Below, piece after piece: positions 3,215-56,226 of a stretch of DNA of 64,000 bases; the stretch's first letter is position 1, and the number at the start of each line of letters is the position of its first letter. The notes beneath the pieces are model-generated. The model made no database searches. It had not been told where the DNA came from and saw only the letters and a list, made by a program, of their open reading frames with translations. The translations under genes and the position numbers were made by a program. The DNA is from Acorus gramineus (lineage: Eukaryota > Streptophyta > Magnoliopsida > Acorales > Acoraceae), in assembly GCA_030737835.1 (NCBI GenBank), contig JAUJYN010000040.1, positions 910,810 to 974,809 on the forward strand, in the 5' to 3' direction.

Positions 3215-3480
3215 AGAGGGCTCCCATCCGTAGGTACCACCGATGCGTTCGGAAGCGTACTGATCGTGGGAGTATACCAGGTAGAGGCTACCCGGGAGAG
3301 GGCTAACGAATGTTATTGCGAGCGTGAAATCGTTCTCCCCTTCGTTGGATCCGATGTAGAAACTCCCCGGCTTTGGAAAAGCTCTCCTGACAAAGGGCTC
3401 CCATCAGTAGGTACCACCGATGCGTTCGGAAGTGTACTGATCGTGGGAGTATACCAGGTAGAGGCTACGTGGGGAAAGGG
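3215..3480 (+). repeat. LTR subrepeat, 177-bp period
   Basis: The block beginning GGGCTCCCATC and running through TACCAGGTAGAGGCTAC occurs at about 3219 and again 177 bp later at about 3396. The same pair, with the same spacing, is in the 3' LTR (about 9739 and 9916). A reverse-complement relative lies at about 12300-12400 in the minus-strand LTR, which shows that the two elements share this module. Confidence 0.8.
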
Positions 3481-3682
3481 CTACCGGTGGACCAAGGGTG
3501 TAGAGCAGTCTAAATCTCTTCCAAAAGTCCTATGTCACCCCTAAAGGGTGAGGGTGAGGATGAGGTGAAGACACATCGCCGCGCGACCCATTCGTTGTTC
3601 GTCCGTTCCCATAGTTGTTGGGTCCTGTTGCGTATCGATGTTCAAAGACATCGTTGGGCAGTTATCCCGATGTAGATGATCC

Positions 3683-3912
3683 AGTAGCATTGTGTAGACC
3701 AGTAATTTCGGGTCTCTTCGACCAACGGTATGGTCTCTCCCCAAGAGACCCAAGAGTCTCCCTCTGGGAGTGAGGGTGAGGGTGAGGTTGGTGATTCAAT
3801 AGTGTTGTGTGGACCAGTAATTCCGCGTCTCTTCGACCAACGGTATGGTCTCTCCCCAAAAGTCCCAAGAGTCTTCCTCCGGGAGTGAGGGTGAGGGTGA
3901 GGTTGGTCACGC
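3683..3912 (+). repeat. LTR subrepeat, 115-bp period
   Basis: Two tandem copies of a unit containing GACCAGTAATT, a CTCTTCGACCAACGGTAT block and an AGGGTGAGGGTGAGGTTGG tail sit 115 bp apart. The same pair is in the 3' LTR (about 10202-10432). Confidence 0.8.
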
Positions 3913-4446
3913 CGCCGCGTGACCCTGTTGTCCATGGGTTTCCACCCATGTTTTTCGTTGAAAGAAAATTGTGTTAGCATTGAACTGTTGTAATGGTGAT
4001 TGGTTTCCAGCCACTCACTGAGCTTGTAGCTCACCCCTCGCATACTATTTCTTTTCAGGGGCAGTGTTGGGCGTGGAGCTGGAGCTTCCCTGTGGCGTGG
4101 TCTTATGGGCGTGGAGCGTTCTTCCAGCGGGTGGCGAGTGCGAGGCTGTCAGCAGTCCTAGAGTTATTTTATGTATTGTAAATCATGCATGTGGCACATG
4201 TTGTATTTTATTTGGACTAGACTTGGCTCTCACAGGACAGTGATTGTGTATTCGAGTCTGTAATATTGTTATTGGTTTACAGACATTGTTGATATCTTAT
4301 ACTTCCATTTTTCAGTCAGTTATCATTATCATTGCTTTGCCACTTTGTATGTTGTTGTTAGAGTCTTTGTTGACCTCAGGTATTGATAGTTGATATTTCA
4401 TTATTGCCACGTCTCGGGGACGACCGCTCTTGGGCATGATAAAAAG

Positions 4447-7185: not shown

Positions 7186-10100
7186 TGTTATGCCTATGTC
7201 ATTTGGAGCCATTTCGGTTAAGCCTTGGTCACATCTGGGTCATTCAGAGCCTTTTTTTTTTCAATCGGAGTCGCTAAAATTTTGGCTTTTAGCCACCTGC
7301 GGGAGTTGGAGTACTCTGATTAGAAATCTAATTGCATATTATGGGTCCTGGTACTGTTTCGTACTACCCATAAAAATTTCATCGAATTCCGGTAATATTT
7401 TGAAAAATATGCAGTTCTGAACCGTATCCGGGTTTTGAGAGTTCTTGGTTAGTCGAAGAGTGTGAGATATTTTAGGGATGTGGTGACCCTTGGTAACCTT
7501 ACCCCCACCTTGCTTGAGGATGAAGAAACCATTGGTTATTTGATACGTGAGTGGGTGAGCCTAACCCTAACCTCACCCCCCCTTAAGGTCACCCCTAGGC
7601 ACTATTTGGGTATGAAAATGATTTTTTTTCCCTCTCTCTCTCTCCCCCTCTCTCCCATTTCGTGCAACACCTTCTCTCCCTCTCTTGGTCTCTTTTTTTC
7701 TCCTCTTTGTGTGTGAAGAAGGAGGAGGAAGAAGCAATTGAAGGAAAAGATGAAGAAGAAGTACAAGAAAGAGTGAGAAAGGGTGAGTATGTGTTGTTGT
7801 TGTTGTTGTTGTTGTTGTTTCTCTTCTCTCCATCCCCATCTCAAGCCCCTTTGCACCCCTGTTTTCTGCCATGAAGGGCTTGAGGAGATGCTGATGAGGT
7901 GGTGGTAGTGGTGGTGGTGGTTGAGGTGGTTGTGGGTGTGTCGAGAACCCCGCATCTCCCCATTTCCCTCCCCCTGTTTTGGTAAGGCAGCACTCTGTAT
8001 TTTAAAGATCTCAGTGCATCTAGTATTTAGAGACACATTTTTAGGATTATGTCTTCATATGATATGATCATTTATGTGTCTAGATGTTATATATGAAATT
8101 TGGGCTCATTATGATATCTGTGGTGTAAGTTAGAATCTGTTGTGCATGGCCTGTCCAGATTCGCGTAGGAATTGACCTGCTTCTGGAAATAATTTATTTC
8201 GGGCTTGTAGAGGCAAAATTAGGTTCTAATGTCTTCATGGATTATGATCCCAGCATATCAGAGAATGTGCACGTTTTATTTCATAATTTGTGGAAGTGTA
8301 TTGGGTGCTGTGGAGATCAATTAGTAGGGCTGCTTGCAGCAGGTTTGGCAGTTTTGTTTGGTTGAGTGTCAAGGAGTTGTTTGCATGTGTCTTGTGTGAT
8401 AATATGGAAGCTTCAGGGGTTAGGGTCTTCATGAAGTAGGCTTATATGTCTGATAGGAGGTTCCATAATTTAATTATGGATCATTGGTTGTGTTTTGTAG
8501 ATCTCGTAGACCGGACGCGTGATGATCCGGGTATCGGTGAGTGGTTTGATCCAACCCTTAGGGAAGTGTTAGATGCACGTAGTCATCCGTCGCGCATCCG
8601 TTGGGCACCCTGACTAAACTACTTAATTAGATAAGTAGTATGGTCATGTCTAACTCATAATTTGTTAGATATCTTGCATGCTAGGCTTATATTGCATGTA
8701 TTGTATCCATGTATAAATGATTGTGTTGCATGCGCCCCTCTAGTATGAGCATGTATTTCTGTAGTGTGTATGGATGTATAGAATATGGCATGCCTTAGGT
8801 AGTATTATAATACTACTCCCACCATATTAATTGGAATATCAAGCATGATTAAGTCTGGGTTAATAACGGGCACCTGCCTAATATTCCCTTGCGATAAGAC
8901 TCGAGAGCGTGGTGTAGTTGTTGCGCCCATGCTAATGGGGCAAGGCTATGACCAACTTCATGAGATGATGATCTCTCTCGCCCTCTCCCTCTGCACGAAC
9001 TGAGTAAGTAGATGCGATTTCCTACTCGACTCAGGTTCGTTTGGAATATTGGCATGCACCTGTTAAGTGCGCGAGATTTGCACTTGACCCTTACCTTTTA
9101 AGTTGGTGATATCCAACGCATGCTTAAGTTAGGCCTTGTGTGCTTATGTGATTAATGGCCATGTATGCATGTTGTATGATTTATTATGATGTAAATCCAT
9201 GTTAGGGAGTATCCCTATAATTATTTGATAGGTTATCGTGCATGTAGTTTATGTACATAACTAAGATATAATTCTCTTGGATATATATGCGCATGTTAAA
9301 ACTGATTAGGCCTATCTGAAATAGGCGTGGGTATGACCCGTTGTCGCGTTGTACCTTATTAGTTAGAGCGCTAGCGATGTAATCGCCCCCGTGCATCCGA
9401 GCGATGCACTCGTTTGGAATTCAGGAGAATTCATTATCTTATCGATTTTGTTAAGCCGGTAGTTGTGGCATTAAGCTAGGCCTACCCGTGCTAGGCGAGT
9501 ATATGAACCGCCTGTTGGGCTATGTGCCTTGGGATTATTTCTGCGTGAGAGCAGAGGCAACTTCCCCCCTTGTGTCCGAGCGACGCAACCGTGTGGGAGT
9601 GCAATAGTATTCGATATCATCGATATGTGATTATCGAGAGTAGTTGTTTTTGCATTGGGTTCGCTTTGCAAACATGGAGTGTTTCCTCCCAATGTCGTCT
9701 GTGTTGAAGCAGCTCGGGTTGTAGCCGTCCTAACAGAGGGCTCCCATCCGTACGTACCACCGATGCGTTCGGAAGCGTACTGATCGTAGGAGTATACCAG
9801 GTAGAGGCTACCCGGGAGAGGGCTAACGAATGTTATTGCGAGCGTGAAACCGTTCTCCCCTTCGTCGGATCCGATGTAGGAACTCCCCGACATTGGAAAA
9901 GCTGTCTTGACAGAGGGCTCCCATCCGTAGGTACCACCGATGCGTTCAGAAGCGTACTGATCATGGGAGTATACCAGGTAGAGGCTACGTGGGGAAAGGG
10001 CTACCGGTGGACCAAGGGTGTAGAGCAGTTTAAGTCTCTTCCAAAAGTCCTATGTCACCCCTAAAGGGTGGGGGTGAGGATGAGGTGAAGACACGTCGCC

Positions 10101-10960
10101 GCGTGATCCATTCGTTGTTCGTCCGTTCCCATAGTTATTGGGTCCGGTTGCGTATCGATGTTCAAAGACATCGTTGGGCAGTTATCCCGATGTAGATGAT
10201 CCAGTAGCGTTGTGTAGACCAGTAATTCCGGGTCTCTTCAACCAACGGTATGGTCTCTCCTCAAGAGACCCAAGAGTCTCCCTCCGAGAGTAAGGGTGAG
10301 GGTGAGGTTGGTGATTCAGTAGTGCTGTGTGGACCAGTAATTCTGTGTCTCTTCGACCAACGGTATTGTCTCTCCTCAAAAGTCCCAAGAGTCTTCCTCC
10401 GGGAGTGAGGGTGAGGGTGAGGTTGGTCACGCCGCCGCGTGACCCTGTTATCCATGGGTTTTCACCCATGTTTTTCGTTGAAAGGAAATTGTGTTAGCAT
10501 TGAACTGTTGTAATGGTGATTGGTTTTCAGCCACTCACTGAGCTTGTAGCTCACCCCTCGCATACTGTTTCTTTTCAGGGGCAGTGTTGGGCGTGGGGCT
10601 GGAGCTTCCCTGTGGCGTGGTCTTATGGGCTTTGAGCGTTCTTCCAGTAGGTGGCGAGTGCGAGGCTGTCAGCAGTCCTAGAGTTATTTTATGTATTGTA
10701 AATCATGCATGTGGACATGTTGTATTTTATTTGGACTAGACTTGGCTCTCACAGGACAGTAATTGTGTATTCGAGTCTGTAATATTGTTATTGGTTTACA
10801 GACATTGTTGATATCTTATGCTTTCGCTTTTCAGTCAGTTATTATTATCTTTGCTTTGCCACCTTGTGTGTTGTTGTTGGAGTCTTTGTTGACCTCAGGT
10901 ATTGATAGCTGATATTTCATTATTGCCACGTCTCGGGGACGGCCACCCTGGGGCGTGACA
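7186..10960 (+). repeat. 3' LTR (3.77 kb)
   Basis: Right long terminal repeat, ending GGGGCGTGACA and followed by the AAGGG duplication. It differs from the 5' LTR only by scattered substitutions and small indels as far as I can see, although the internal coding region is far more decayed. Confidence 0.93.
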
Positions 10961-11106
10961 AAGGGAGACTGAGTTTTCTTTTAGGCTCATATATTTCATG
11001 CTTTTATTTTATTTTTGGTATGTTTGAATATCTTTCTAAGCATGGTTTAAAATGAAAATTTTGTTTAGGATTCTCACCCTTTGGACCCTTTCTTTTGTTG
11101 TCTCAG

Positions 11107-11454: not shown

Positions 11455-11668
11455 GGACCCTCCAGTAGACTCCTCGCCTCTGGTAGGTTCGGAAACCTCC
11501 AAGGCCCGAGGGGGACCACGTCCACGCATCCCTCTACGAGGAGGCATATCAGCAACCTAAGAAACAGACACTATGATCAGAATACTCATACAGAAATCCT
11601 AGGACTCATCTCTAAGAAGAAAAAAAAAACAATTGGCTCTAACAGGACCAGGCTCTGATACCAACTTT

Positions 11669-14228
11669 TGTCACGCCCCAGGGCGGCCGTCCCCGATACG
11701 TGGCAAATATATATAATATCAGCAGTCCATACAGGAGATCAATAAAAGACTCTAAACAACATCGAAGATGATACACAATCAATAATGTAGCTGACATAAT
11801 ATATATACTTATAGCGGAAGCTTAAACAACTGAGTCTGTAATTCAAAAACATATTACAGACCAGAATACATAATCAACTGTCATGTGAGAGCCAATATAA
11901 ACAAAGACATCCATATACAAGTGTTGTGCCCAAGCACGGATAACAATACATACAAGCAAAAGAAGGGGATGCTGATGGCCTCTCACTCGCAGAACCCAAA
12001 ACGTGAACGCTGCTCCGTTACTGATGTGATGCCTCAGGGAGCTCCTCCTTCAGATCCGACTCAGTAACAACTGGAGGAAAAGAATATGCGAGGGGTGAGC
12101 CACACGCTCAGTGAATGGCACAATCTATGCAACACAACTCATATTAACCTTAAAATAATTAAAGTCCCTAAACGGGAGTAACTGTACAAGCTAGTGGGTC
12201 GTAGCATCGCCGACCCACCCCACCCTCACCCTCACCCTTTAGAGGTGACATAGGCCTTTTGGGACAGATTAGACTGCTCCACACCCTTGGTCCACCGGTA
12301 GCCCTTTCCCCGGGTAGCCTCTACCTGGTATACTCCCATGGTCGGTACATTCCCGAATGCATCGGTAGTACCTACCGATGGGAGCCCTCTGTCAGGACAG
12401 CTTTTCCCAACCCGGTTAGTTCCTACTCGGATCCAACGAAGGGGAAAGAGCAACCTACTCTCACGGATACGATCCTCTTGGATCCGTCGACAATGATTAC
12501 TAACACTACTAAGGTAATGAATTCTCAAGAATTCCTCCAGGGCGCATAACTAAGATGCGGGGAAACATATATTATAATAACAAGGTTATAATATTTGCTA
12601 AGGCATGCTTATACTAACATAATCTCATTTTGATTTAATTAAATTAGACTAAATGGGAAACATGCATAGATCAAGGCTTTTCAAGCATGGGACACGGTGT
12701 CTAGGCATGTATGGGCCTCTATACATGATACATGGATGTATATCCCTAGCATACAATGTCTAACATGGCATGGTTACATCATAGCAAAACATGCATTAAC
12801 ATAGGTTTTCATTCACACAAGTTAATATGCAGTTATGGTGCCCCAGGGGAGGGCAATGCACGCCTACGTGCATCGAACGCCTCCCTACTGGGTTGGATTG
12901 ACCCACTCACCGCAACCCCGGTCGTTGCGTGGCCGTTCGCCAAGATCTGCAAGACATGGGCATTCAATATGGTGAGTAAACTACACAAATATACATGAAA
13001 TTTACTAGAAATGCCAAATACTCGGACAGGCATGCATACGGGCTCGCACGTATGCGAGCACGCACGTACGCACGCGAGTCCGAGTGCCCCGACTCCTACC
13101 CGAACCCTCGGGCAGCCACACGCATGGCCCCCCACACGCGTACGCACGCATACGCACGCGCCCCAGCACCCTTGGCGCACTGCCTCGCGCCTGCCCGCGC
13201 GCCCAGACGTGCTGTCGCGCACGCACGCACGCTCGGGCGCGCCCGCACGCACTGCGCGTCCTGCCCGCGCGCCCTCGCGCGCACTGCGCGCCCGCCAGCG
13301 CGCCCGACTGCGCGCGCCAGCTCTCCTCTACGCACGCAGACGCGCGCGCGCCCAACCTCCCCCCACCCCCTCCTCAGCCCTCCCACACCCCTTACCACAT
13401 ATGCATAGCATGCTTGAACACTTCAAAGCCCTAACAATCATCTAAAACAAAGCTAAGGGAGGAGGACAACTTACCAAAAGGAGAGGAAGAAAAAGGGGGG
13501 TACTCAGGTGCCCTTTGCGCACCAAACCACCGTTACCGCCACCACCAACACCACCACCTTCTCAGCCACTCTCCAAGCATTTGATGGCTGAAATCAGGGG
13601 TGGGGAGGGAAGGCATGAGAGGGAGTTAGAGAGAAGGGAAAACAAGAACAAACAACACACAAAGTTTGTACACACACATACCTTCTCTTCTCTTTTCTAG
13701 GTCTTTCTTCTTTTACTACTCTATTTAGAACAAACAAGGAAGAGGGGGTGAAGGAGAGAGTGAGAGAGAGATGGAGATGGAAGGGGACGCCCACAACTAG
13801 GTACACACTCACACTCACATTTATTTAAGAAAAAGTGGGTTGGTGAGGCTTGACTTTGAGTCAACCCAACCAAACAAAAAAACAAAAGCCCTTGACCTAG
13901 TCAATGGTCAACTTTGACTTGGTCCAAGTCTTCTTGACTTGGTCAAAGTCACCCATTGACAATCCAAAATCGGTCAAAACCCGGATACAATTCGGAACTG
14001 CCAAATTTTCTAAAACGTTACCGGAATACGATAAAATTTTTATGAGTGGCTTGAAATGGCACCAGGACTCATAATGTGCAGTTAGATTTTCAATCGGAGT
14101 TCTCGAACTCACGCAGATAGCTAAAAGTCCAAAATTTTAGCGGCTCCGATCGAAAAAAGAAAAATTGGAAAACTGCCAGAAATGACCCAAAGGCGACCAA
14201 AAGGCTAAAAAGTGACACATATATAACA
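11669..14228 (-). repeat. Minus-strand LTR (2.56 kb)
   Basis: On the minus strand this LTR starts TGTTATATATGTG and ends GGGGCGTGACA, then AAAGTTGGTATCAGAGC. Its ends and several internal blocks resemble the LTRs of the 670-10960 element, for example the segment with the TGATTGAAAATC-like word and the CCGGTAACG word near its start and the subrepeat module near 12300. It lacks other parts and carries a GC-rich insert (13011-13365). Confidence 0.8.
13011..13365. other. CpG-rich, purine-pyrimidine alternating tract inside the LTR
   Basis: About 350 bp packed with CGCACG, GCGCGC and TACGCACG words, in sharp contrast to AT-rich surroundings. All six frames are open by composition here, giving arginine-, alanine- and cysteine-rich frames up to about 144 residues that I do not take as genes. 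Alternating purine-pyrimidine sequence of this kind can adopt Z-DNA. CpG survival is odd in a silenced plant repeat, where methylated CpG tends to decay to TpG. Confidence 0.75.
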
Positions 14229-26080: not shown

Positions 26081-26711
26081 GGGTTAAAGACATCTAAGTC
26101 CCTACAAACATATGAAAACCTATATAAGTCCCTACTAAAATTGAGACAGACGTACGAGTCCCTGAAAACTCAGAAAAACCCAATTATCATCCCTGAGTTA
26201 AATTTCTATCCAAACTTAACAGAATATTCTCAGAATATTCCATTAAATATAATTGTGTAGACATTGAAGTCTTTATAAACAGTCATAAAGACAAATTAAT
26301 CCCTGTAAAAAACAAAATTACCCCTAAAAGACTTTTACATTAAATTGTGTACACATTGCAATCCCTATAAATAATCATAAAAACAAATTAGTGACCGCAA
26401 AAGATAAAATTGTCCCTAAAAAACTTTTACATTTAATTGAATAGACATTACAGTCCTTATAAACAATCGTAAAGACAAATTGATACCTGTAAAGATTTTC
26501 TTTACGATTGTTTATAAGGACTGTAATGTCTATCCAATTAAATGTACAAGTCTTTCAAGGGCAATTTTATTCCGTTAAGTTTGAATAAAAATTTAACGCA
26601 AGGATGATAATTGAGTTTTTTTGAGTTTTGAATGACTAATGTGTCTGTCCCAATTTTAATAAAGACTTATATGAATTTTTCTATGTTTATAGGGACTTAG
26701 ATGTTTTACCC
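26081..26711. mobile_element. Fold-back (long-TIR) MITE with central hairpin
   Basis: The outer about 140 bp are inverted copies: GGGTTAAAGACATCTAAGTCC on the left (26081 on) and GGGTAAAACATCTAAGTCC on the right read from the opposite strand. Inside are three degenerate direct units of about 120 bp, each with AGACATT..GTC..TATAAA and AAAGACAAATTA-like words. The last unit forms a nearly perfect hairpin: the segment from about 26431 (ACATTTAATTG) to 26477 is repeated inverted at about 26500-26547. A GGG end with long inverted repeats suggests a Mutator-like MITE, but the 9-bp flanks (TTATTTTTA and GTTTTTCTT) do not match well. Confidence 0.78.
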
Positions 26712-32920: not shown

Positions 32921-32938
32921 ATTCAGGCTATACTCCAA

Positions 32939-32966
32939 GGGGGCGTCTATCCCCACACACCATTTA
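32939..32966 (+). repeat. Left terminal inverted repeat
   Basis: A 28-bp end beginning GGGGGCGTCTATCCCC, inverted relative to 43460-43487 with one mismatch at base 7. It is preceded by ATACTCCAA. Confidence 0.92.
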
Positions 32967-33030
32967 ACTCACCCAACCAACCGACTTTATTCACAATCCA
33001 TCACTTAGTTTTTCACTAAACACACTATCC

Positions 33031-33038
33031 TATAAATA
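33031..33038 (+). promoter_or_regulatory. Candidate TATA box for the PMD gene
   Basis: TATAAATA lies 92 bp inside the left end, in an AC-rich stretch followed by a CT-rich leader. Given the long distance to the start codon at 35288, one or more introns in the 5' untranslated region are likely. Confidence 0.45.
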
Positions 33039-35287
33039 TGCCTAAACTGAATATCTAAAGCCACCAACCACCATTTCATTTACCCCAAAACTCTCTCTTC
33101 ATTGTGTTTTCCCCTTCTCTCCTTCATAAAACACTCGACTGCTTCTCCTTGTCAAAAATTCATCATCGTCCCTGTGCCGCCGCCGCCGTCGTCCCGTGCC
33201 GCTGCCGTAGTTGTCCCTGTCCTCTTTCGTCGTCCCCGTCCGCCGATGTGGTTCCCTTGTCTTATCTACTCGGTATGGCCGTATGATCTTTTCTTCTTGC
33301 TCATCCACTCCCTCTAAATATCAACTTATGTTAACTACAATACCTTTCAAAGGATTTGTATGGTGATCCATTGATGATTATCATTGTTGTTAGTTTGTTA
33401 TTGTTCATAGGATAAGAAACTAGGGTTTTCAGAGTTTGGTTTAATGGGAAAAATGTTGTTGAATTGTTGAGTGAAAGTTGGGTGTTTGAGAGCATTTGTT
33501 CCATTACCTAGGTCTAAAAGAAATGTACAATCGAGGTATCGTGAGTCATCCCCTGCATATATCGTCATGAGTTTTTTTTTTTTTTTTTGCATCATACTGT
33601 GTGCTTTCTCTCTCTTTTCACAGCCTTGAATGTGTTGAAATCTTTGTTTGGATGTGAAGACCATCATCATATAAAGCTGTCTTATTATTGCATGATTTGA
33701 AGCAAAATATTTATATTATATGTAATGAATGGATGACCATTGTATGAAGTGCTGAACTCTGAGTCAGTAATAACTTGTTGGTGTTATGTACATGTGTCTG
33801 CGTTCTTGTAGAATAATTTAGAGAACATGAAGAAGCTAAGATGCTTCTTGATGTTTATGTCAGTTGTTAATTGGGATATTGAATGAATTCAATCATCGCT
33901 TAGAGTGAGCAATAATTACAAATTGTTGCTTTGTAAATTGTAACTGTGTATCAAATGTTCTTTGAGAACAATTGGGAAAATAAGAAGAAGCTGATTCGTA
34001 GATCTAATAATGACATAGATCAGTTTATTTCACACTATGAAGATAAGATTATTTCACACTTTAAAGCTAAGATGCATGCTCTCTTGGCATGGTGAGAAAT
34101 TAGGATTGTCATTGTTGTGAAAGAAATTCAGTTTTTCAGGTGTGTTGCGTGAAATAAAAAGAGAGAAAATGTGGGTTGTGAATGAAATTGGGGTTGTCAA
34201 ATAATTCTTTATAATTGGTATGGTTATAGATGGGGACTATCATTGTTGTTGTTGTGAAAGAATAGGGTTTTCAAAGCATTTGTTCTTGTCTAACCATATT
34301 TTATCATTGTGGATAAAAGAACATTGGTTTGTAATGGGACGTATCGAGAAATCATAGATAAAAATAGTAGGTTTATATATGAAATCTAGTCTCCTCATAT
34401 GCCTCTAGTCATCAGTGAGTGAATAGCAAAGAAAGAAAAAATGATTTTTGCATAAGCATGAACTAGGACAAGACAACCTGTTCCTACTAATGGTTTGATT
34501 TGGCTTTTGGGCTCTTTATATTGACATTATTTTTTTCAAGTTCATCTTAAGATTGAGATATTATTCAGTTTATTTTTTTGTATTTTTATCTTTTAATATA
34601 TGGGATTGTTTTTATCAGCATGTCATACATTTGTTAGCTTTGTTTTTAGTAGTATTTCGTGCACTATAAACCAAGTTAGCTTAGCCTATATAATTGTATG
34701 AAACATTGATTGTCATATAATATAATAACAAACCGATTGTATATTGTTATACATTTGAAAATGATGCGCAATGCATGACCACCAGATCTCTCTCTCATAT
34801 CTATACTTTGATTAAACTGCATTCTTTATGTATATTAAATTTAATTAGACTACAATTAGATGAGAAGTTGTATTTCTTTCTGATTAACACTACGTTTGGT
34901 ATAAAAACGTGTTCTTGGGCCTAGCTAGGCATGTCGTGTAAGGGAGGGGTGAGCATAGAAAAGTACATGAGATTAATCTCAGTATATAGTTGATGTATAA
35001 CAAGTATATATATTTATTAATATATATATTTATTAAAATACGCCAACTGTAGTTGACAATGATCACCTAATTATATACTTATAAATCTCCAATCTTTGAA
35101 TATGTTTCATTGTTGACATGGATATCCCGTTCCAATTTGTTGGAAATTTTATTTTTTTAGTTGCTTATTGTTTACTTAAGTCAATATATATGACCATTAT
35201 AACCATGTTTTATCATCGTTGAATGATGTGTTTGTGTAAGCAATCTCTTTGTTCATAGTTGGTAATGGTTTGAAAAAAATACACAGG

Positions 35288-37366
35288 ATGGCTCCTAAAC
35301 GTGTTCCACAAACTGCATCCCTTCGAAGACGTGTTTCAGAAAGATTGGCCAAAGATGCTCCTTCATCGTCAATAGTTCCATATCACGAAGAAGACGTCGC
35401 CCATGATAATGTTCTTGAATCTGAGGATGAGGTAGATGCACAGGAGGTGGCAGTGAGGGAAATTGAAAGACCAGATCCAGATTCTGACATAGATGAACTC
35501 AGTATAAAAGGTCCTTTCCCCGGTGGGCCCCAAACGAATGAACTTTTAGTGGACTATAGACATCATATCGCTTATCGTGTGTGGAATGGCAAGGTATGCA
35601 ATTGAAATTCTTATTTGGTCTATATTGATATGTTATAAAATTCAATGTTAATAATTTCATTTGATATATGATAAATCATATCGTGTAGGGCGATCGTTTA
35701 TTGCGATGTCGCCAACCTGCTAAAACACTCGAGAGTTGGGATTTGGAGAAGGAATCCCTCACATTTACTGATAGGTTGAAAGAAAGTGGGCTATGGCCCT
35801 TGAGAGCGTATTGCTTCAAAACCTTGAACAACCCATTAATTACAGCAATGGTTGAGCGGTGGCACCCCGAGACCAACTCATTTCACCTACCATTTGGGGA
35901 AATGACAGTGACACTTGATGATGTTGCCCAAATAGTTGGCATTCCTGTGATGGGAAAGGCTTTGCATGGGTACACAAACTTGACCATCACTGAAGCATCA
36001 AAGTTAATGAAGGACAATCTTGGTGTGCCACTAGTAAAAGCACAAGATGAGTTACGAGTGTACAATAGTAGTGCAGTTAGACTTGTGTGGTTAAGGGATC
36101 AGTTTGCATATAAGTCGGTTGGGTTGTCTAACGATCATATCGATTGCGCTGTTAGAGCGTACCTGCTCTTCTTGTTAGGATGTACATTGTTTAGTGATAA
36201 GACTGGCATCACTGTCCCTGTTGCATATCTCAATTTTTTGATAGAGATCTCGGATATTAGTTCATACGGATGGGGAGCGGGTGCACTTGCTCAACTCTAT
36301 CGACAACTAGGGATTGCATCTCGTGCAAAAGCGAAGCAAATATGTGGTTATCTCACACTTTTAGAGGTACTCATAGTGTTCAACATTATATGAATTTTTG
36401 TTTGAATGGTTGATTGATGCTAATAATTGTGATTTTTTTCATATTATCTTGTGCTATTTAGGTGTGGATCTACGAGCACCTCCCATTTTTGAGACCAGTG
36501 CCGGATCAAATGTACAATGAGCAAAACCCCCGATCGGATCGATGGAGACGTTACCGTCATGTACCTAGTTTGCAGAAGAATTCAATAGATGTAATTCGGG
36601 AGATCCTCGACATGGCGACAGTTGACCAGGTATTTCTTTTACATAATTTGTGATTTATGGGTAATGATTATATTATAATGGTTGCTCATCACTGTGTGTA
36701 GTTTGATTTCGATCCCTACCACTCTGTTCGTGATCGTAGACCGCTTGAGGAGTACGCCTTCTACAAGGGGTGTTTGTGTGTCCATCGTTTTTTCGAGCCA
36801 TATATGCCAGATCGAGTACTACGCCAACTAGGGCACGTTCAGACTATACCAAAACCACCAATCCGCCCTCTGGGAGTTGTTCGACGATCACGTGGTGCTA
36901 ATAGCTATAGGGCTGATTATGGGGGTTCAGTTGAGCAGCTAGAGCAATGGGAGGATCAGGTCATTAGCACAGCTACGAGGGGAGATCCATTACGTATACC
37001 GTGTGAATCAGTGACTGGGTACATGGAGTGGTTTGAGAGGATGAGTCACAGGTTTGTACAGAACCCTCAAAACAAGAAACTATCGCTCATGATGACCCCT
37101 GATGTCGACGTTAATGCGGTAATGTCTTACATCTAGAATATGCTATTTTTAATTCTGTCATTAGAGACTTGGTATTGAATGCCCTCTGATTTTTCCTATA
37201 GCGTACCATCGCTATTCGCCATCTGGAATTGATTTTGGTTAGGGGAACCACCATTTCGACAGCACAAAGAGTGGCTCGAGAGGTGATTCAGTATCTACAA
37301 GATGGCACACCTCCAGACGATGCAGCGACAACAGCTTGTAGGATGAAGAAAAGGCGGCATGACTGA
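35288..37366 (+). CDS. Plant mobile domain (PMD) protein, five coding exons, 577 aa
   Basis: Exons are 35288-35593, 35689-36366, 36462-36629, 36702-37118 and 37202-37366. All introns are GT-AG, 72-95 bp long, and all fall in phase 0, giving an unbroken 577-residue frame. The start ATG follows an ACACAG acceptor, so an upstream untranslated exon is likely. Residues 1-102 are basic then acidic and disordered-looking. The PMD core starts in exon 2: VERWHPETNSFHLPFGEMTV and DDVAQIVGIPVMGKAL (about 157-194), the hallmark of PF10536, followed by helical segments through about residue 520. The C-terminus is basic (RMKKRRHD). Host relatives (MAIN, MAIL1) act in the nucleus in silencing and genome stability; here the gene lies within a Mutator-like element, so a role in element control or escape from silencing is my inference. 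Confidence 0.88.
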
Positions 37367-37729
37367 CATTGATGCTTGTTTCCTTGAGTATTTTGTGATT
37401 TGAATGCATCATTTTGTACGTACAGGGTTCACCAACAATTAGAATCCTTTAAACAAGTTAAATGTATGTGATGTTCTAGTGTTATCGAATTATTGAGTAA
37501 TTATAAATGTGTGTGAAAGGTTCCAGTTTATTGGAGGGTTTTATGTATGTGAACGAATCAATTATAAATGTGTGTGAAATGCTCACATGTTGTCTTAAAG
37601 TATTCATAAGTGGTGTTAGTTCTCCAAATGGATAATAAAATCCCAAAATGTGCAGGTCAACGTACAAGTTTGTCAGGCAAATAAATCTAGACTTTATACG
37701 CATATCGTCAACCTGTGTGGTCGTTGGGC

Positions 37730-39410
37730 GACGTAAAAGTCCTAAACTTCAGGTCGACAAGTATTTATTGACTGAATGTACAAGTGGGTGACGAATAGTC
37801 AGTCAAACTGGAGATTTTTTAATGTGGATTTTTGAAACACCAGCTTGACAAAAGGTATGTCGATATATTATATAAGAGCTCGACCACTTCTCAGTCGAAC
37901 TGGGGTACAAAATGAGCAGATTAACCCAAAGAACGACCACTTCTCAGTCAACCCGAGCTTTGTTCGTCGACATCCCTTTCGGCGATCCTCGTTCGACAAA
38001 CCCTCTGTCGACCAAATGTATATCCGGATGACAAAAGCTCTGTCGACCTGGAGATTTTATACATTGGAATTTTGAAACACAGGTTCGACAAAAGCTTTGT
38101 CGAAATTCTTCAAATAGTTCGACAAGAAGAAAGTCGAACTGGACGTAAAACGAAGAGATCCTTCAACGGGTCAACGATGACATCTCAGTCAACCCGAGCA
38201 ATGTAAGTCGACTTTCTTTCCGACTATCGTCGTTCGAGAGACCTCTTGTCGACCCTATGTGTTTGAGGACGACTAAAATGCTGTCGACCTGGAGTTTTTT
38301 ACATTGGAATTTTGAAACAAGGGTTCGACAAAATATTTGTCGACCTTCTTGAAATAGGTCGACCACAGCAAAGTCGAACTAGACTTAAAACAAATACCTT
38401 CAACTGAAAAGAACGACGACTTCTCAGTCAACCCGAGTTTCGTACGTCGACTTCACTTTCGCCGACTTGCGTTCGACGGAACTATAGACGAACAGATCTA
38501 TAAGTGAGCGACGTACAGTCTGTCGACCAGAAGATTTGTGACTGTGATATTTTGAAACAGCCGTTCGACAAACGATTTGTCGATATAAAGTGTGACAGGT
38601 CGACTATAGGGAGGTCGAACTGGACTACAAAAATGGAGAGATCATTCGGACCAAAGACCGGCGCCTTCTCAGTCAACCCGAGCAATGTACGTCGACTTTC
38701 CTTCCGACTACCGTCGTTTGACAGACCTCTTGTCGACCCTATGTGTTTGAGGACGACTAAAATGCTGTCGACCTGGAGTTTTTTACATTGGATTTTTGAA
38801 ACACGGGTTCGACAAAATATTTGTCAACCTTCTTGAAATAGGTTGACCACAGCAAAGTCAAACTAGACTTAAAACAAATACCTTCAACCCAAAAGAACGA
38901 CGACTTCTCAGTCAACCCGAGTTTCGTACGTCGACTTCACTTTCGCCGACTTGCATTCGACGGACCTATAGACGAACAGATCTATAAGTGAGCGACGTAC
39001 AGTCTGTCGACCAGAAGATTTGTGACTGTGATATTTTGAAACAGCCGTTCGACAAACGGTTTGTCGATATAAAGTGTGACAGGTCGACTATAGGGAGGTC
39101 GAACTGGACTACAAAAATGGAGAGATCATTCGGACCAAAGACCGGCGCCTTCTCAGTCAACCCGAGCACTGTACGTCGACTTTGATTTCGGCGACCCTGG
39201 TCGACGGACCTTTAGTCGACCTCATGTATAAGTGGGCGACGACCATTCTGTCGACCTGGAGATTTTTTTCAAAGATTTGTGAAACAAATGTTCGACAGCG
39301 GGTTTGTCGATGAGTTTTATACCTACTCGACAGACATCCTGTCGTTCTGATGTGTTAGTAGGCGACTATTAGTCTGTCGACCTGGAGATTTTATAACTGT
39401 GGGTGAATTT
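37730..39410. repeat. Higher-order tandem array rich in GTCGAC, between convergent genes
   Basis: The landmark CTCAGTCAACCCGAG occurs at 37943, 38184, 38423, 38668, 38907 and 39152, a period of 239-245 bp. Units two apart match better than neighbours and are spaced exactly 484 bp (38184 to 38668, 38423 to 38907, 38668 to 39152), so the array is built from A-B dimers. Each unit carries several copies of GTCGAC or near variants and the phrase GTTCGACAAA. The palindromic word is present in both strands equally. The array lies between the stop codons of the two genes and could act as a terminator, transposase-binding or small-RNA region; none of these is shown by sequence alone. Confidence 0.88.
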
Positions 39411-39802
39411 TCAAAATCAATAACTTCAATGTATGTTGTATAAAATGAGAACACAATATGATAGAATATAAGACTATTTTATTTACTGTCTATGGTCATT
39501 TACATCAACACTTTCCCCATATCATTTCACACTTTCTATGCTAGGTACTAACAAGAGATATACATCACCACTGCACTACCTATTACATTGTCTATACAAA
39601 ATGAGCTTCAAGACATTTACATAATCAGTGGACTTCTCCTGTGAACATTGCCTATACAAAACGACATACCCTTATACATTTGCCTATACAAAATGATTCA
39701 CAATGGCAAATTTGTGTAAGTCTTACAAAAAATACGAAAGCTTACACTTTTTGGGTATTATGTGTGCACCATATACATTGAATGGACACATATGCTAGTG
39801 TC

Positions 39803-42430
39803 CTAATTAAGATCAATAACATCTACCACTGCTACATCAGTACCTGCAAGAGCCCTGAATCGATGCATCCTATCTTCGTATGGCATTACCCATGTACTCG
39901 CCGCATCAAGACGAAAACGATCCCACGTTCGGGCAGCTGGAGGTAGTGGAGCGTTTGATTTGAGCTCCAAACCGACGAAGTGACATCCACGAACGTAACC
40001 GATTGAGAGGATCCGATGAGAGCTGATTGGTGGGGGTGGATCTCTTAATGGGAAAAAGGTGAGACATTGAGATTTGGATATATGCACAACCACGACCTTA
40101 TAACATGAAGCTATCACAAACCCCATGTCTGGCATTGACATCCAATGCTCTTTGTCTGCAAAGGTCGATTGACAATGGAGAATGTTCTTCAACTCTTCAA
40201 CTCGACTCAACCCATATAACACCCTCATGTACATATCTGGATGTTGCTCAATCTCCAAAAGGAGATCGTTCCTCACATCTCTCCACCCTTCATTTCCCAT
40301 ACCCAAGAAAGATGCAACAACCCTAAAGCCACAATGACCATCCCCAATGACATCATATATGCTACTGATGAACGGGCTTAGGAATGGTGGGAATTCGGCC
40401 ATGCATTTCTCACCTTCGATGGCTCGATTCCGAAGAACCCTTCCCCTTTGCATAACCATCTTTGGTCGGTTGGGTTGTTTGGGATTTGATGCTTCTGAGG
40501 CTTGCATGGGAATAACTGGATCAACTGAATTTAATCTCTGCACCGACTGAAGGACATACTCAAAGCCACTAGGAGATCGTTTGGTTGATTCTTCCGCAAG
40601 GGCTTTAGCTCTTTTTTTCCCGCTCCTCTTTCGACCCTTTGTGTTCACCTTCACAACGGGCTCTAAAAGGAGAGTGGCAGTTGGGTCACTCAATTTTTTC
40701 AACACTTTCTTGATCTCCTTTTGTTGTATGATGTTTCCATCGGTGAAGCGTTTGAAAAGCATATCAATCTCCAGGCTAATATCGACCTCATCAGCGAAGT
40801 CCTCGATCAATGGTGTAATCCAAAGCTTTCGCCAAAATGGATGAATCTCTGAAATTGGTATGGTACCGCCATCTCGCCTGTATCCCGCGATCATATGGGC
40901 GCAAGGTAATCCACAGCTTGAGTACAAGGCATGATCACATATGCTCTCGCATTGATCTACTCCATCACTTGCACATATCTCCATATGCAACTTTTGAAGG
41001 GCATAAATGGAGACTACACCAACAAGATGTCGGAATAGATACCCTTGAAACATGTGTGGAATCTTTGTAAGACTCTCTTCGAAGGAAGCCCTGATATCAG
41101 AAATCTGCAACTCCAACAAATTGTGGATCATCTGCCACGAGCTCACAAAATTGTGAGTGGATGTTTGCAATGCCCTCTTCAGCTTTGAATGGTGACTTTC
41201 AACGCGGTTAGTTGATGTGTTACCAAGGTGCATTTGCCTATCGATCCAGGCGGTAACAAACCTTTCTCTGTGCTTGTCTAACCAAGTGGCATGAAGGTAT
41301 GACAATACATTTGGATATGCACGGTACTCATCTTCCAGAAGTTGCAATTTTCTATAGAAATCCGCCTCGGTGAATGACTTCATCACATCAGCCCAGGATC
41401 CCATGAATGCGTCCCATGTTTCTACATCAGAAAACTCTTTTCTACAATTTTTCACCACGTTCTTCGTAATGTGAACGCGACACAGGAGATTTACTGTCGA
41501 CGGAAAGACTACAGATATAGCCTTCATCAATCCAAGTTCGTGGTCAGTGATGATTACCTTTGGGGGGGTTGCACCATCAAATATTGAATTGAAGCACCCC
41601 ATCGCCCATGTGTAATTCTCTTCCTTTTCTGCACTCAAATACACAAAAGCAGCAGCAAAAGTCTTGCCTGTCGAAGTGACCCCCACTATCTCCAATAGTG
41701 GCATTCTATATCGGTTCGTCTTGTAAGTGCAGTCAATCATAAACACAATAGGAAATGCTTTCACTAGCTCGACAGATGTAGGATGAGCAAAAAAAATCTC
41801 TGACACGATCTCAACATCCTCTTGTGCTCGATGCCGCTCAATATACCCATGCTCGTAGATTAACTTCATCAATTGTTGCATATGTGTACGACCACAAGTC
41901 TCCTGGACCCTCAATTTTGCCCGAGCATTATATATGTTCTTTATTGAGCTAACATTGGCAGGATCTCTGTTCTTCAGGTGGGTCAGGATATCGCGAGGTC
42001 GCATACCACTCAATGACATCCCCTCTAACACAGTATATTCATCATCCATCAACTTCCCAGCGAATGAGTGACCCTCAAAGTAGGCAATGAGTGGATGATT
42101 ATGTAAACCACATAGAACTCTTAATAACCATCTTCCTGAATTTTCGATGGAGCGCAACTTGAAAGGACAACCACACTTCTTCGTACCAGTTTGGCGGCGC
42201 TTCTTTATTTTTTTCTTCTCGGTGTCTTCCAATCCAGTGTCTTTCTTGCTTGGATGATTGTCAAACTTACCCCCTCTTTCACATATGAGATCCACTCGGG
42301 CTGATCTACGAGAGTCTGCTTGATGCGACCGCCCAATGACTACAATGACTCCGATGTTTCTACCTACTCTTTTAACCCAATCAATTAGCTCCGCTCGATT
42401 GTCAAAGCTCTGAAACAATGACGAATTCAT
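39803..42430 (-). CDS. MULE transposase with C-terminal OTU-like cysteine protease domain, 875 aa
   Basis: One uninterrupted frame on the minus strand. The N-terminus (to about 120) resembles the FAR1/WRKY-GCM1-like DNA-binding region of MULE transposases, with C50, C86, C88 and a CGLHNHPL motif. The MULE transposase core holds the acidic triad candidates D233 (MIDCTYKTN), D296 (IITDHELGLM) and E411 (NRVESHHSKL). A SWIM-type zinc finger follows (C494, C498, then CGLPCAH at 506-512). After a basic linker (about 595-620), residues about 685-825 form an OTU-like protease: D697-G-H-C700 and H817 in GCHFVGLEL. It would cut at the element ends; the protease's substrate is unknown, possibly ubiquitin-like. 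An upstream exon in 42431-42660 cannot be excluded, but the ATG at 42430 gives a full domain set. Confidence 0.9.
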   Translation of the reverse strand: MNSSLFQSFDNRAELIDWVKRVGRNIGVIVVIGRSHQADSRRSARVDLICERGGKFDNHPSKKDTGLEDTEKKKIKKRRQTGTKKCGCPFKLRSIENSGRWLLRVLCGLHNHPLIAYFEGHSFAGKLMDDEYTVLEGMSLSGMRPRDILTHLKNRDPANVSSIKNIYNARAKLRVQETCGRTHMQQLMKLIYEHGYIERHRAQEDVEIVSEIFFAHPTSVELVKAFPIVFMIDCTYKTNRYRMPLLEIVGVTSTGKTFAAAFVYLSAEKEENYTWAMGCFNSIFDGATPPKVIITDHELGLMKAISVVFPSTVNLLCRVHITKNVVKNCRKEFSDVETWDAFMGSWADVMKSFTEADFYRKLQLLEDEYRAYPNVLSYLHATWLDKHRERFVTAWIDRQMHLGNTSTNRVESHHSKLKRALQTSTHNFVSSWQMIHNLLELQISDIRASFEESLTKIPHMFQGYLFRHLVGVVSIYALQKLHMEICASDGVDQCESICDHALYSSCGLPCAHMIAGYRRDGGTIPISEIHPFWRKLWITPLIEDFADEVDISLEIDMLFKRFTDGNIIQQKEIKKVLKKLSDPTATLLLEPVVKVNTKGRKRSGKKRAKALAEESTKRSPSGFEYVLQSVQRLNSVDPVIPMQASEASNPKQPNRPKMVMQRGRVLRNRAIEGEKCMAEFPPFLSPFISSIYDVIGDGHCGFRVVASFLGMGNEGWRDVRNDLLLEIEQHPDMYMRVLYGLSRVEELKNILHCQSTFADKEHWMSMPDMGFVIASCYKVVVVHISKSQCLTFFPLRDPPPPISSHRILSIGYVRGCHFVGLELKSNAPLPPAARTWDRFRLDAASTWVMPYEDRMHRFRALAGTDVAVVDVIDLN

Positions 42431-43459
42431 TTATATTCAGGTGACCAAGAAGTATCAAGAATCGCATATCTACAAATGGTTCTGTTGACATTACCAAGGA
42501 TGTAGAAAAATGCTCGGTGGTGTCAATGTTGGAGATCACCTCATTGGATATGGCCTCCCTCTCCTCTTGCATGGACACCTCAACATCTTCAACAATAGGC
42601 ATTACATACTTTTGCAATTGTAATAAAACATAGGCCGTCATGTACTTGTATTTTTTCAATATAGAAAAAATAAAGATTAGGAGATATAAAGAAAAACCTC
42701 AGTGCCCATACTTCAAATTCCTGTGGTGTGTCTAGATATTGAATATATCAATATAAACCGTGTAACTCCAATTCCTATAAAAACATTTCGTTGAGAAATA
42801 ATTTAATACAAATGGTTAGTAAGGACATAAAATAAATTTAATGACTATAACTATAGCCAACCATCAACAAATAACCCTACAATCACCACCTTCCACACCA
42901 TGACCACAACACCACCACATATCCTTTAACAACAACCATCACCACCACCAACACTACAATGAACTACACATTACACACAAATGAATCACCCTCCAACACC
43001 ATCCCAACTACCACAACCCTACACCCTAAAAATACAGCCATTTTGGAACCCACAAACCCTAAACAAGCATCACCAATGCCAAAACACCATTGGCAACCAA
43101 ATTTTTTTAATAAAAAAGAGGATGAAGCATGGATACTCACCTAAGTGAAGGGTTTGGATTAGGGCATCGATTTATACAATAGAGAATCGTTGGATAGTTT
43201 GTGCAATGTCAATGGGAGGGTCGCCGGAGGGTGAATGGGCTTCCGACCGGTGCCGTCGATGGCGGACGTCGTGGTCGACGGCGAGGAAATGCACGGTGAG
43301 AGAGAGAGGAAATGGGTTTGGGGTTTTTCACTTCATTAGGTTGGTGGGAACAGAGAACTTTATTTTTGGGTTGGTGGGGAGAGGTGGTTGGTGTTTTCAG
43401 TGGCAAAGAATAAGGAGTGCATCTAATTTTTATTTTTATTTTAGGTTGGTGCTAATAGG
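42431..43459 (-). promoter_or_regulatory. 5' region of the transposase gene
   Basis: On the minus strand, a TTGTATAAATCG TATA-like word lies at about 43169-43180 and a strong donor-like CTTAG/GTGAGT at about 43138-43142. Together they suggest a short untranslated exon spliced toward 42430. The stretch 43206-43330 is GC-rich with GTCGACGG-like words. An 85-codon frame at 42402-42659 overlaps the start and could be an alternative first exon. Confidence 0.4.
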
Positions 43460-43487
43460 TAAATGGTGTGTGGGGATAGATGCCCCC
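43460..43487 (-). repeat. Right terminal inverted repeat
   Basis: Mirror of the left end: TAAATGGTGTGTGGGGATAG followed by ATGCCCCC, then the ATACTCCAA duplication. Confidence 0.92.
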
Positions 43488-44129
43488 ATACTCCAATGGC
43501 GGTATGGACGAAACAGCAACATCCACTCCAACTTGTGTCTGTAGGCACCTAGGTTGGACAATGGGTGAGATCCAAGCACAAGCATTGGAACCCATTAGGC
43601 GGGGCTGAGATATATTCTTGGCCTGTGCAACAGTAGATTGCGGCCTACTACACCCCGTCAGCTAGAGGTAGATGATAAAGGGGAGGACGTGGGATTTAAT
43701 TTTTTTTTTTTTTTTAAGATTGGTACCCCAAAGATTTAATCCCTTAACCTCCTTTATGGAAAGGGTGTGCTAACCAATTTTCTTAAAGCTCAATTTGCCA
43801 ACAGTCCCCCTTGAACCCCAACTTCCAACGTGCAACAAAATGGTGGTGGTTATCGATAAGTCGGAACCATCTGCCATCAACCGTCGCCAACTCCTCGGAA
43901 GAAGGAATCGAAGAGATAGTATGGCTTAAAGGACATCGTCATTTCAGTTGCAGTGGATTCACAGTCAGAGAAGACGCTACATCATGCAGCGAAGGAGACA
44001 TAGGAGTTTTAGTGCATCTTCTGATCATAAACAAATGGCATCGATACTAACCTCGGGGCACAACGGACGCAGAAGGTCCACCTCTAACAACTCTTTGGTA
44101 TATCGGAACCAGCCAATCTCTTCTACAGT
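43488..44129. other. No gene seen
   Basis: A T run at about 43698-43715 and short frames. The sequence continues on the other side of the hAT element at 45087 and seems to be part of an older repeat I cannot name. The last eight bases, TCTACAGT, are the hAT duplication. Confidence 0.4.
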
Positions 44130-55100: not shown

Positions 55101-56226
55101 ATTGAGTTCCAGGCAATCAGAGACTTGACCATAGAGTGTAAGAAGTGAGAGTTTCGATCACCATCTAAAAGCCACAATTGATAAGCTTTTTGGCGCAAGA
55201 AGGATTCCTTCACGTGAAGAAGATCCAGGAACACCAACTTGGCTTGAGCTTCAGAGGAAATAAGAGAGGAATTAAGAGGGTCCATCAAAAGAGCATTTTG
55301 AGCAGCCTCAAGGGAAGCATGGCAAGATTGGAGTTGCTACTGAACTGGACCAAACACACAACAGTTCCATTCCTTCAAAATGGCCTTAGTGTGTTGGAGC
55401 TTTTTTACTAGAACAAACATAGAGGAACCATGGAAATCCTTCTGCCAAGCATTGTGAACCAATATCGAGAAATCGGGATGGGATTCCCACATTTGAAAGT
55501 ACTTGAATGGTCTGGGACCAGTAGGAATAGGTGGTTGAACGGTGACCAACAAAGGGCTATGGTCAGATAAACCCGTGCAGAGGACCTGAATGAAAGAGTC
55601 AGGAAAAGAGGAGGTCCATTTGAGGTTAACTAAGGCACGGTCAAGCTTACACGCTGTGCAATTATCCTGGTTATTGGACCAAGAAATAAACCAACCTACA
55701 GAACGGAGTTCATTCAAATGACAGGAATGAATACATTGGTTGAATCGAGCCACGTGCTGAGAGTGGATTGTCCTCCCACCGATCTTTACATAACAGTAAT
55801 GCAATTCATTAAAGTCACCCCCAATGATCCAGGGGGGGTTAGCAGATTGGGATGCTAAGTCTTCAAGGTCGTTCCGTAAGGACATCCTCTCAGAGGAGCT
55901 GTTAGAAGCGTACACCGCTGTGTAGAGGAGAGGAGAGCTCCCATCTACAGGTGTAGCTTTACAGAGAATGAACTGTTCAGTATATGAAATAAGCGCCAGA
56001 TCCAAGAGGTTATCTTGCCATAGAACCCATATACGGCCAGAGGAGAGGGGACAAAGCTTCTTGTACTTGGGAAGGATTTTCCATTGAACTAAGCTAGCCT
56101 TAGATGGTTGAACTTTAATTTCAATCAGACTGATGATAGGGACTGGGTGACGGACCAGAAATTGTGGACATCTAGCTACTTCTCTTTGTTGTTAAGTCCT
56201 TGCACATTCCAAAAGATGCAATCCAT
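52124..56226 (-). pseudogene. LINE ORF2: endonuclease, reverse transcriptase, RNase H
   Basis: The endonuclease begins MDCIFWNVQGLNN near 56226. Its later part (56005-55337) has PPWIIGGDFNEL and TGLSDHSPLLV, the GDFN and SDH motifs of APE-type endonucleases. The RT spans about 55288-53860, with SNQSAFIKGCNI, VDLKKAFDSVRWDFL and the catalytic FADD at 54189-54200. The zinc-binding domain (zf-RVT) near 53134-52900 reads FLCWQAMLNKLPTRACL and CNIERESVEHLFIHC. The RNase H (52600-52124) has NSDGSC, LLELKGVV and HVYHEGNRVVELLA. The protein would nick target DNA and copy its own RNA there. At least six breaks make it non-functional. Confidence 0.88.

Follow-up and report, generated by a model that had tools for sequence, protein, structure and literature searches.

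Introduction

VANC21 and VANC6 are transposon-encoded proteins that recognise 8–9-bp motifs, which accumulate in tandem repeats in the noncoding DNA of their elements, and they cause element-wide loss of methylation (Hosaka 2017; Sasaki 2023). The plant mobile domain (PMD) was first described in a rice Mutator-like element (MULE); the MULE-encoded PMD-C proteins of grasses and Amborella are transposase fusions, and two captures of genic PMD-C by MULEs have been inferred (Ikeda 2017). Gypsy retrotransposons are also known to carry PMDs. An anti-silencing role for PMDs encoded by transposable elements (TEs) was proposed by Ikeda 2017 and repeated in a 2021 review (PMC8616336), which calls PMD proteins "enigmatic" and the domain one of unknown function. 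In the host, TE silencing requires MAIN, MAIL1 and PP7L, which interact and have been tied to the DOWN motif (Nicolau 2020; Jarry 2023). Here, we describe a MULE at positions 32939..43487 of a 64,000-nucleotide stretch of Acorus gramineus DNA (contig JAUJYN010000040.1; this whole stretch is called the window), whose second gene fairly likely encodes a VANC-like anti-silencing factor built on the PMD.

Like VANDAL21 with its VANC21, the element joins a transposase to an accessory protein of the same fold, as predicted for a PMD relative, and its noncoding DNA holds motif-bearing tandem repeats. It differs from the VANDALs in that the accessory protein is a PMD protein and not, by sequence, a DUF1985-type VANC, and in that its motif is GTCGA rather than YAGTATTAY or AGTTGTMC. 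Moreover, its array lies between the 3′ ends of the genes, its transposase bears an OTU tail, and no vanB-like third gene was found among the element's open reading frames (ORFs) of at least 100 aa. MULEs with a PMD inside are also known from rice, other grasses and Amborella (Babu 2006, as cited elsewhere; Ikeda 2017), but those of grasses and Amborella are described as transposase–PMD fusions, whereas here there are two separate convergent genes. Host MAIN and MAIL1 (PMD-C) share the Pfam domain, and sequence-tied gene control through the DOWN motif has been proposed for them; the PMD studied here is TE-encoded, and neither strand of the window contains the single DOWN instance searched for, CATGCAGTTT from the MORC1 promoter (the full consensus was not covered).

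Results

Anatomy of the element

The element comprises the following features:
32939..43487: the element, a 10.5-kb unit
32930..32938, no strand: left 9-bp target site duplication, ATACTCCAA
32939..32966, plus strand: left terminal inverted repeat, 28 bp, GGGGGCGTCTATCCCCACACACCATTTA
33030..35287, plus strand: probable promoter and untranslated 5′ leader of the PMD gene, the leader holding a long intron; by inspection
35288..37366, plus strand: PMD gene, 577 aa; exons 35288-35593, 35689-36366, 36462-36629, 36702-37118 and 37202-37366
37640..39400, no strand: central array of about seven ~240-bp units, rich in GTCGA(C); proposed PMD binding region
39803..42602, minus strand: transposase gene, 904 aa; exon 1 42602-42495, exon 2 42409-39803
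39854..40441, minus strand: transposase OTU-like domain, at residues 663-858 in the first row of alignment A1
43460..43487, minus strand (read 43487-43460): right terminal inverted repeat, 28 bp, GGGGGCATCTATCCCCACACACCATTTA on the other strand
43488..43496, no strand: right 9-bp target site duplication, ATACTCCAA
Element end sequence: GGGGGCRTCTATCCCC

The original prediction had claimed 28-bp inverted ends and a perfect 9-bp duplication, and both were borne out. The ends are identical at 27 of 28 positions, with arms that reach 44 nt at 82%, and ATACTCCAA lies directly outside both of them; neither strand of the window has a further copy of it. A 16-base end pattern, allowing ≤3 mismatches, matched the whole window only twice, at the two element ends; since 6 of 100 shuffles likewise gave two matches, this count is weak by itself, and it is the placement, the inverted orientation and the 9-bp duplication that carry the case. 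Together with a MULE/MURA-type transposase, the inverted ends and the ~9-bp target duplication identify the element as a MULE. A 23-base element-end pattern had no match in viral contigs.

Two intact genes run inward from near each end, with the array between their 3′ ends. The PMD gene shows GT..AG at all four introns, each placed between codons, and reads through 577 aa without a stop; the transposase forms a single ORF of 875 aa, but a two-exon model of 904 aa was judged better, and the ATG at 42430, the first of the long ORF, probably lies in the intron. These splice models were drawn by inspection of the sequence. The two open convergent genes of the original prediction are thus a five-exon gene, that of the PMD, and most likely a two-exon gene, that of the transposase. 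By inspection, TATA-like or CT-rich leader sequence lies near the inverted ends on both flanks, including a TATA-like CTATAAATAT near 33030, and an AG acceptor immediately precedes the PMD ATG. MuDR of maize likewise has a convergent gene pair, with one gene starting close to each end; here, a PMD gene takes the place of mudrB, and the ends are 28 bp long as against ~200 bp in MuDR. The whole appears to be an intact MULE, possibly an autonomous one.

The PMD protein and its predicted likeness to VANC

The window PMD matched Pfam PF10536 with E = 3.2e-69 (234 bits; curated cut-off, 34.9). A predicted model of an annotated Acorus relative showed the VANC fold of the DNA-bound domain, and the solved structure that it matches is a sequence-specific binder of motif arrays, complexed with DNA. 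By sequence, the window PMD gave no DUF1985 match at E≤1 and Acorus relative P0121 scored 13.6 bits, where the Pfam cut-off is 35.1 bits, and for this reason we term the PMD VANC-like and do not file it as VANC. We found no PMD–VANC link stated in the literature, a search that did not cover the text of the VANC21 crystal structure or Nature Plants 2025 (s41477-025-02127-1).

Given the predicted fold, a family of plant proteins that act in gene silencing may be related to a set of transposon counter-weapons. A broader reading, which we hold tentatively and at slightly less than even weight, is that PMD and VANC form one superfamily of sequence-specific chromatin regulators exchanged in both directions between transposons and host genomes; the MULE described here would then carry a complete PMD-based module against silencing, made up of the protein and its cognate motif array, while host MAIN and MAIL1 would be the same family in host use. 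If so, element arrays would reveal the DNA motifs of uncharacterised PMD proteins.

Relatives were drawn from the best 120 of 165, 120 of 125 and 120 of 395 proteins in the respective searches. Acorus proteins, with 45–61% identity, make up the top three PMD matches and five of the 120 listed, and many of the listed non-Acorus matches are named MAIN-LIKE. A tree of the window PMD with 126 of the 196 listed PMDs (those of ≥380 aa; Acorus P0123 was too short and was left out) placed it in a clade with four Acorus proteins, P0122, P0121, P0126 and P0135 (SH-aLRT 100). This tree and that of the transposase (the window protein with 92 of the 120 listed, 600–1200 aa) are quick searches with long branches, and were used for nearest neighbours only. 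P0121 and P0135 (A. calamus) are 99% identical where aligned, with several stretches missing in P0135, and their locus numbers, 705 and 743, lie on one chromosome; this near-identity on a shared chromosome suggests recent copying of that PMD gene.

In a separate observation, 3 of the 41 PMD relatives of alignment A2 matched DUF7745 (PF24924) at E≤0.01 (best, 3.8e-6; window PMD, 0.025); the PMD/VANC fold perhaps extends to this third family. One PMD peptide pattern gave 14 pattern matches in viral contigs, and none of them was a PMD relative.

A conserved motif in the central array

TCGA is found 46 times in the 1,761-bp array, whereas a Markov model gave 17 on average and at most 27 among 500. 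Its seven units contain 4, 8, 8, 7, 4, 7 and 5 copies, where shuffled units contain 0.65–0.96, and in five of the seven the count lies above the maximum of 500 shuffles. The motif is also conserved: mean pairwise identity between units is 0.91 in the 32 columns that hold TCGA and 0.67 in the other 208. TCGA ranks first among the 59 4-mers with at least 10 occurrences, and it stays first, among 73 4-mers with at least 6 occurrences, when two near-duplicate units are dropped. The wider form of the motif is GTCGA(C). As in VANC-type systems, a short motif is enriched in tandem repeats of the same element. The array has a CpG observed/expected ratio of 1.40, compared with a mean of 0.62 and a largest value of 1.15 in 235 overlapping segments of equal length from outside it; intact CpG-bearing motifs in a transposon fit low germline methylation, but also a recently expanded array. 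Elsewhere in the window the array has no long relative; at E≤1 it matches one stretch of 28 bp and one of 15 bp.

The PMD gene could instead be a captured host copy, a transduplication of the Pack-MULE kind with no role for the element, and the array an unrelated satellite. MULEs do capture genes, as the two inferred PMD-C captures illustrate (Ikeda 2017), and the retention of four introns is what a copy of genomic DNA should show. We nevertheless regard capture as unlikely: the gene is complete, with all 577 codons open, unlike typical captured fragments, the array motif is conserved between units, and there are several Acorus PMD relatives (five listed, four of them in the clade of the window PMD), which may lie either inside elements or outside them. 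Less likely still, the array may be bound by the AFT2-like domain of the transposase, or may insulate the convergent genes from each other or terminate their transcription, with the PMD acting elsewhere. Its central position, more than 4 kb from either end, makes it an improbable end-recognition site, and, of the two proteins folded, it is the PMD relative that matches a solved structure of a motif-array binder.

A proposed anti-silencing mechanism

We propose binding of the array by the PMD protein because the element has both ingredients of the VANC system, a protein whose relative has the fold and a motif array. What the data show is the layout of the element, the predicted folds and the conservation of the motif; binding and the later steps of de-silencing and expression are proposed by analogy. 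The PMD protein would bind the GTCGA(C) repeats of its own element and strip or block silent chromatin there, much as VANC21 acts on VANDAL21. With silencing lost, both genes would be expressed from near the element ends, and the transposase, through its MULE core, would then cut and insert the element. In the least supported step, the OTU domain would probably remove ubiquitin, either from the transposase itself, which may thereby escape degradation, or from nearby chromatin or repair proteins. In sum, a PMD gene in the position that mudrB has in MuDR may act as VANC does in VANDALs.

Several observations weigh against this model. The folded PMD is the annotated Acorus relative and not the window protein, and the window PMD has no DUF1985 match at E≤1 in Pfam. 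VANC was not found in the PDB by sequence, where the single PMD sequence gave no match and a profile gave one match at chance level; the link to VANC therefore rests on the predicted fold and the weak DUF1985 matches. The motif was chosen after inspection of the array, with the 4-mer ranking as a guard, and two of the seven units do not exceed all shuffles for TCGA. Without the CpGs of TCGA, the array ratio falls to 0.99, still high but no longer above the values found elsewhere in the window (≤1.15), and high array CpG may reflect recent expansion of the array. The array lies between two 3′ ends, while VANC targets are described in introns and upstream of a gene. Co-occurrence is uneven as well: among the matches listed, Tripterygium has 12 transposases and no PMD, and Mercurialis has 10 PMDs and no transposase. 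Finally, MAIN and MAIL1 are reported to promote silencing in Arabidopsis, so a TE-encoded PMD could act in the opposite way or be a decoy.

As a decoy, the PMD would be a dominant-negative protein that titrates host MAIN/MAIL1/PP7L complexes globally, without binding element DNA. The mutual interaction of these proteins, their requirement for TE silencing and the published proposal of PMD counter-silencing by TEs all speak for it, but it leaves the conserved motif array unexplained, and the structure matched by the fold is that of a sequence-specific binder with its DNA; we consider it very improbable.

The idea that the element carries its own modifier of silencing, raised in the original prediction, is better supported by the VANC-like fold of the relative and by the motif array, although as an idea it was already present in Ikeda 2017 and the 2021 review. 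A fold shared with a DNA-bound anti-silencing protein turns that published guess on TE-encoded PMDs into a testable model, with a protein, an array and a candidate motif. The shared fold also suggests that the VANC strategy extends beyond the Arabidopsis VANDALs to Acorus, sister to all other monocots, with a protein unlike VANC by sequence.

The transposase and its OTU-like domain

The transposase comprises a predicted AFT2-like N-terminal fold, a MULE core and a predicted C-terminal OTU fold. The predicted OTU fold has clear structure matches and carries the catalytic Cys and His, with D696, C699 and H816 conserved (alignment A1). No Pfam OTU family matched the window protein at E≤1, and otubain was matched in 1 of 27 transposase relatives, at 0.047; we therefore describe the tail as a divergent OTU, recognised by predicted fold only. 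The claim of an OTU-fused transposase is upheld on this basis, and with the ends, the duplication and the Pfam PMD match it supports the reading of a MULE in which a PMD gene stands beside an OTU-bearing transposase in one 10.5-kb unit.

An OTU-cysteine-like motif is present in 70 of the 120 listed transposase matches, 55 of which also have a downstream H- or Q-type match; the expression used is loose, and many of the others are partial models. MULE relatives of the OTU type abound in annotated plant proteomes, so the OTU part of the element is not new. Ulp1-bearing Mutator transposons and Ginger1 similarly carry a ubiquitin- or SUMO-type protease domain in the transposase or element, whereas the present element pairs an OTU-like protease with a MULE-type transposase; for other transposons, ubiquitin editing on repair proteins has been suggested (PMC2836005).

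Some Rosaceae relatives of OTU type (P0013, P0014, P0015, P0020 and P0055) bear AWS and SET (histone methyltransferase) domains, and Actinidia relatives P0008 and P0011 bear an FHA domain; these are possibly domesticated proteins or gene-model fusions.

Co-occurrence and divergence of the two genes

The best transposase match is from Acorus gramineus, with 93% identity over 68%, and the second has 72% over 81%. Together with the Acorus PMD relatives, these matches point to Acorus or a near relative as the host. In 50-residue blocks, P0122 is 70–86% identical to the window PMD in the N-terminal part and 54–70% later, and transposase relative P0001 is 86–96% identical throughout, which suggests that the PMD diverges faster than the transposase; as different loci are compared, this is only suggestive. 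VANC is likewise reported to diverge faster than VANA.

A PMD domain was found in none of the 120 listed transposase matches (precomputed Pfam lists; lengths to about 1,530 aa); the PMD listings had length limits too low to reveal fusions. The Camellia sinensis genome measures 2.9–3.1 Gb, the size used to compute the expectation below. Among the matches listed, 23 Camellia scaffolds carry the transposase and 61 carry a PMD, with three in common (479423, 1421859 and 883744), where 0.71–0.76 are expected (P = 0.035–0.041); scaffolds were distinguished by length only, and chromosome-scale records were left out before counting. A cut at 1.5 Mb lowers P to about 0.001, but it was picked after the data were viewed, and our case does not rest on the Camellia count. 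Chromosome-scale matches (for example in Rhododendron vialii, Rosa rugosa and Glycine soja) are uninformative for co-occurrence. Overall, the evidence for joint travel is mixed, and the Tripterygium and Mercurialis matches argue against an obligate pair.

Other features of the window

Outside the element, a direct duplication with ~6.5-kb spacing joins 737-4443 and 7252-10962 (93–96% identity in the listed two-copy pieces, with 115-bp tandem pairs within each copy), and inverted pieces lie at 11667-14163. At 26087-26707, nested inverted repeats with 140-nt and 75-nt arms enclose a 92-bp tandem repeat, probably a foldback element. On the minus strand, an open frame of 284 aa at 55337-56191 has an Exo_endo_phos endonuclease domain (E = 1.7e-6) and perhaps derives from a long interspersed nuclear element (LINE).
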